NCBI GenBank assembly: GCA_903900805.1
Contig: CAIUOP010000027.1
Location: 1-64,000, forward strand
Direction of reading: 5' to 3'
From: an uncultured beta proteobacterium
Lineage (GTDB): Bacteria; Pseudomonadota; Gammaproteobacteria; Burkholderiales; Burkholderiaceae
Length of the DNA: 64,000 nt
The position numbers were made by a program, and so were the translations under genes. Positions within the stretch are counted from its first letter, which is position 1. Every line of letters begins with the position of its first letter. This document shows positions 4,482 to 4,545 of the stretch, one piece after another. The notes under the pieces are model-generated. The model did no database searches. It worked only from the letters and a program-made list of their open reading frames with translations, and was not told the origin of the DNA.

Positions 4482-4525
4482 TAGTCATAAAAGTGACTCA
4501 GAAGTGTCATGAAGCTTACATAGTG
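4482..4525 (+). promoter_or_regulatory. candidate Pho box upstream of the PlcP-like gene
   Basis: TAGTCATAAAA|GTGACTCAGAA|GTGTCATGAAG|CTTACATAGTG: four contiguous 11-nt units, then 12 nt to TAATAC (4534-4539). Confidence 0.65.
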
Positions 4526-4545
4526 CATTGGCCTAATACAAACTC

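Follow-up and report, generated by a model that had tools for sequence, protein, structure and literature searches.

A predicted PhoB-type Pho box and a probable leaderless start at the plcP lipid gene cluster of a freshwater Polynucleobacter

In promoters of the E. coli pstS type, tandem Pho boxes replace the −35 element. Gene clusters of plcP and agt with predicted Pho boxes are found in marine heterotrophs (PMC4796936), and in Burkholderia sensu lato such boxes are predicted upstream of olsB (PMC7814305); plcP is not mentioned in the main text of the latter paper. In S. meliloti, PhoB boxes that replace the −35 element are located 22–25 nt before the mapped transcription start (PMC3616915). 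For Burkholderia cenocepacia, mRNAs without a leader are described in which a TA-rich promoter motif takes the place of the Shine-Dalgarno (SD) sequence (PMC4603805).

The window analyzed here, i.e., the whole stretch of 64,000 nt, is from a member of the genus Polynucleobacter. The features at the plcP locus are:

3654–4457, minus strand: olsA-like acyltransferase gene, divergent; best NCBIfam matches OlsA, below cutoff
4482–4503, plus strand: distal Pho box, heptamers TAGTCAT (4482–4488) and GTGACTC (4493–4499), 11-nt phased
4504–4525, plus strand: proximal Pho box, heptamers GTGTCAT (4504–4510) and CTTACAT (4515–4521)
4529–4537, plus strand: extended −10-like element TGGCCTAAT, hexamer CCTAAT, after a 10-nt spacer (4522–4531) from the last heptamer
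4546–5355, plus strand: plcP; the product, an LpxH-like metallophosphoesterase, is assigned as phospholipase C PlcP from its Metallophos domain and context
5352–6380, plus strand: agt, GT4-family glycosyltransferase; start overlaps the plcP stop
6392–6799, plus strand: dgkA, prokaryotic diacylglycerol kinase (PF01219, E 2.8e-31)
6840–7763, plus strand: olsB, ornithine N-acyltransferase; likely start ATG 6840, with AAGG upstream

As in the E. coli pstS-type promoter, there are four heptamers in 11-nt phase and a 10-nt spacer to the −10; however the plcP −10, TGG-C-NN-AAT, departs from the canonical form and is followed only 8 nt later by the start codon. The marine clusters (PMC4796936) are similar in that plcP and a glycosyltransferase gene lie behind a predicted Pho box, but the host here is a freshwater betaproteobacterium, dgkA and olsB are part of the plcP unit, olsA is divergent, a second Pho box is found at olsB and a leaderless mRNA is predicted. 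A Pho box before olsB is shared with Burkholderia sensu lato, which is of the same family (PMC7814305), although here olsB comes after plcP-agt-dgkA, with a box that extends over the dgkA stop codon. B. cenocepacia shows that leaderless mRNAs exist in the family; unlike the plcP case here, no Pho-regulated gene and no plcP is mentioned among them in the passages of that report that were considered (PMC4603805). PhoB control of plcP-agt is already known elsewhere, and it is the unusual −10 and the predicted leaderless mRNA that are unexpected at this locus.

The plcP product matches LpxH models weakly and far below cutoff, which appears in line with the PlcP assignment made by family and context; this PlcP-type gene adjoins that of a lipid glycosyltransferase (predicted activity). 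OlsB and OlsA are the best NCBIfam matches of the two acyltransferases, both below the curated cutoffs. The order and orientation ppk2 (−), olsA (−), plcP (+), agt (+), dgkA (+), olsB (+) holds in 59 of the 65 loci with enough flanking sequence, and the remaining six have the same order, with only the ppk2 match absent within the flank. The site precedes genes whose predicted products would replace membrane phospholipids with phosphorus-free lipids.

The array of four heptamers spans 4482–4521, inside the 88-bp gap between the olsA-like gene and plcP. An earlier note on this DNA had proposed such a four-unit, 11-nt-phased array, and its position proved exact. A heptamer model was trained on 96 units of pstS promoters from other genomes, with the pstS of the window excluded. 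With this model the plcP array is the best four-unit array in the window, ranking first among the 127,922 positions of the two strands (17.74 bits, with the runner-up at 8.63 and a window mean of −50, sd 12), and 0 of 20,000 shuffles of the 88-bp gap by first-order Markov resampling equal its score, i.e., it is far beyond chance. As single units, GTGTCAT (10.6) and TAGTCAT (6.8) are strong, CTTACAT (2.1) is modest and GTGACTC (−1.75) is poor; the poor unit is supported by its position and by the sequences of relatives. The proximal box scores 17.6 bits with a 22-bp pstS-trained position weight matrix (PWM), fourth in the window. A naive two-heptamer scan with CTGTCATNNNNCTGTCAT, allowing 3 mismatches, gave 10 matches against 6.3 expected, a count that is not significant; thus the evidence for the site is the array and its conservation.

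Of 96 good-quality genomes in the genus sample, 94 have plcP and 93 have pstS. Two near-complete genomes of the genus (G080 and G113) lack plcP and keep pstS. The promoter sample consists of 118 distinct plcP and 49 distinct pstS upstream regions. The Polynucleobacter pstS promoters display one Pho box, 10 nt and a −10 (.TGTCAtaAAa..gTCAtA.t.....cgTATcgT). When the 22-bp matrix trained on pstS is applied to the 118 plcP promoters, peaks are found at −64 (the offset of the distal box from the ATG), −53 and −42 only, in 11-nt steps, with mean scores of +8 to +10 at these offsets vs about −36 over all offsets. All three registers are positive in 107 of the 118 and at least two in 117, counts that come from related genomes and not from independent samples, with plcP identity in the set down to ~69%; in L067, the one exception, the start codon is displaced. 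In an autocorrelation of column conservation across the plcP promoters, lag 11 gave the highest value among those tested, although not a significant one alone (p 0.12), and the claim of phasing is therefore based on the PWM peaks.

In other genera of the Burkholderiaceae, the top-scoring four-unit array before plcP scores above shuffled sequence (p<0.05) in 25 of 26 genomes. Four units, the 10-nt spacer and GGCNNAAT are all kept in 23 of the 26, the array being followed by exactly 8 nt and then GGCNNAAT, a motif with a background rate of 0.0017 per position. A targeted search for a heptamer 10 nt before a GGCNNAAT-type element succeeded in 25 of the 26 genomes, and two loci of one genus (L206 and L207) are weaker. 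The 11-nt phasing is conserved in the genus (117 of 118 promoters) and in other genera, contrary to the loss in relatives that the earlier note had named as counting against its claim. The rank of the array, the peaks in the genus and the 23 of 26 genomes outside it thus make the PhoB-box reading well supported. In relatives such as L023 and L030, a separate conserved motif, AATATAAATCA, lies immediately 5′ of the array; it is absent from the genome of the window and is possibly the −10 (TATATT) of the divergent olsA promoter.

The earlier note had also pointed to TAATAC (4534–4539) as the element that follows the array. Its position, 12 nt 3′ of the last heptamer, stands, and it overlaps the conserved −10 element. 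However the final AC is not conserved in relatives, whereas the pattern TGGC(N)(N)AAT is conserved in the 10-nt register (CCTAAT here, CTTAAT in most relatives); the −10 is therefore better read as TGGCCTAAT with a 10-nt spacer. Across Polynucleobacter plcP promoters GGCTTAAT is conserved, and CCTAAT has the same 10-nt register after the box as TATCGT of pstS. TGG-C-NN-AAT is read as a putative extended −10, TGn with a poor hexamer in which AAT is conserved. It is atypical: position −11 lacks its usual A and is variable. TGG-C-NN-AAT is nearly invariant across Burkholderiaceae plcP, and other Pho promoters seen in the genus are without it.

In Polynucleobacter only 8 nt separate the end of this −10 from the plcP ATG, and there is no SD sequence; a leaderless or near-leaderless plcP mRNA is therefore predicted. 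The 22–25 nt spacing of S. meliloti (PMC3616915), when applied here, likewise predicts a start at the plcP ATG. An in-frame TAA at 4534–4536, inside the −10, shows that plcP has no upstream start in the window. An SD-like 4-mer is found in 5 of 118 plcP regions vs 48 of 49 pstS regions, the base before the plcP ATG is C in 111 of 118, and the start codon is ATG in 117 of 118. In addition, the best box is at a fixed register to the plcP ATG in 116 of 118, and the pstS distances range from −71 to −92. The spacing, the missing SD, the C at −1 and the fixed distance indicate that the Polynucleobacter plcP mRNA is probably without a leader, or nearly so.

The non-canonical −10 would also fit a case in which the Pho box is real and plcP is transcribed mainly from another upstream promoter, with PhoB modulating or repressing and the mRNA carrying a leader; S. 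meliloti has PhoB boxes far from the start, some of them possibly repressive (PMC3616915). However the last heptamer and the −10 keep the 10-nt register of pstS, olsB and ppk2, in the genus and in the family, and plcP lacks the SD sequence that a leadered mRNA would be expected to carry. A separate upstream promoter is thus considered improbable. The preferred reading, with high confidence, is that the site is a promoter activated by PhoB that serves plcP-agt-dgkA, with olsB reached by read-through, and that it works with two PhoB dimers, an extended −10 and a leaderless or near-leaderless start.

The presumed regulator genes and further Pho boxes are found nearby:

3627–3648, minus strand: ppk2 Pho box (ATGTAATAAATATGTCATATAT), 14.5 bits; 10-nt spacer, then TAAAAC
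6780–6801, plus strand: olsB Pho box (TTGTCTTCAAATTGTCATAAAC), overlapping the dgkA end and stop codon; 18.0 bits, third in the window
6808–6813, plus strand: −10 of the olsB promoter, TAAGAT, after a 10-nt spacer
9649–9670, minus strand: Pho box before the GDCCVxC gene (9418–9630, minus strand) and ppx; 19.6 bits, top of the window
9947–11245, minus strand: phoR, sensor kinase (TIGR02966, 411 bits, cutoff 334)
11315–12028, minus strand: phoB, presumed regulator (TIGR02154, 319 bits, cutoff 296)
16620–16641, minus strand: pstS Pho box, the reference site; 10-nt spacer, −10 TATCGT

The five best matches of the pstS-trained PWM in the window are, in rank order, those of GDCCVxC/ppx, pstS, olsB, plcP and ppk2, and at all five a −10-like hexamer follows a 10-nt spacer. 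Together these boxes form what appears to be a compact Pho island. Nearly all of 206 matches of at least 10 bits in 79 Polynucleobacter loci (1.03 million positions) precede ppk2, plcP or olsB. Consensus pattern matching over the 1.9-Mb genome gave five matches to the pstS-like consensus with at most 2 mismatches, of which four are in the island, including the plcP proximal box; the fifth, on contig C52, is inside coding sequence resembling formate dehydrogenase and was not considered further. An Rfam scan of the island found no family except a tRNA at the window edge.

Several regulators of the OmpR/PhoB family bind direct repeats, and PhoB binding at the array is a prediction, so a different member of the family could in principle be the one that binds. 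This is less probable still than a separate upstream promoter: the matrix that detects the array was trained on pstS promoters only, and the site is within a cluster of phosphate genes beside phoB and phoR. These two genes are ~7 kb from the plcP site, and the DNA-binding domain of PhoB matches 1gxp (E 1.8e-30). That the heptamer-like run arose by chance can be dismissed for practical purposes, in spite of the non-significant count of the loose consensus scan and the one unit of four that scores below zero, in view of the rank of the array, the shuffles and the conservation in the genus and beyond, which refutes it. PhoB control of the site, as the earlier note had it, is thus a strongly supported prediction: the motif is shared with pstS, the phasing is conserved in genus and family, and phoBR is close by.

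The note had further placed all of plcP-agt-dgkA-olsB under this site. For plcP-agt-dgkA this appears to hold. A Pho box and a TAAGAT −10 (6780–6813) belong to olsB itself, which therefore would not be driven by the plcP site alone; the listed olsB start, TTG 6780, falls inside that box. The olsB box scores at least 10 bits in 48 of 98 relatives' loci, and in this genome olsB is probably transcribed from a promoter of its own; some clades have lost the box. For the ppk2 box, 108 of 112 loci reach 5 bits or more. None of 85 olsA upstream regions scores 5 or more, and the idea that a Pho box on the olsA strand controls this gene was therefore rejected.

The GDCCVxC gene codes for a small protein (NF041374, E 4.6e-21), and 6 nt separate its start codon, GTG, from a Pho-type −10 (CAGTAT); the gene is possibly another leaderless Pho gene. 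Among the fetched loci it has two distant relatives only. A Pho-box-like site (at least 5 bits) is found within 160 nt upstream of ppx in 16 of the 20 loci L061–L080; in the window the box is 316 nt from ppx, with the GDCCVxC gene in between.

Under low phosphate, PhoR would phosphorylate PhoB, and two PhoB dimers would occupy the four 11-nt heptamers, which take the place of the −35 element, and would keep RNA polymerase at the extended −10 TGGCCTAAT. plcP would then be transcribed from a point 0–3 nt before the ATG, yielding a leaderless or near-leaderless mRNA. We infer that PlcP would strip phospholipid head groups and Agt glycosylate the resulting diacylglycerol, which DgkA could recycle; OlsB, from its own second Pho promoter, and OlsA would make ornithine lipid.

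In other genera the gap between the −10 and the ATG is typically 27–28 nt, and PlcP has 46–90 extra N-terminal codons. The simplest history would be loss of the leader and the N-terminal extension in the Polynucleobacter ancestor. We lean toward a broader account in which a single ancient Burkholderiaceae PhoB promoter of plcP, with the unusual extended −10 (TGGCNNAAT), came to abut the catalytic domain when that ancestor lost the leader and the 46–90-codon extension; starved cells would then make a leaderless mRNA, and its translation could be favored or tuned in stress.

Polynucleobacter is abundant in fresh water. Lipid replacement based on PlcP is described, in the papers found, for other bacteria, i.e., marine heterotrophs, rhizobia, Pseudomonas and a methanotroph, and the literature searched contained no paper on a Polynucleobacter Pho regulon and yielded no lipid data for this organism. 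The locus provides a specific, conserved regulatory map (ppk2, plcP-agt-dgkA, olsB, GDCCVxC and pst) that is testable in cultures, and a predicted stress-regulated leaderless mRNA that would be fixed genus-wide.
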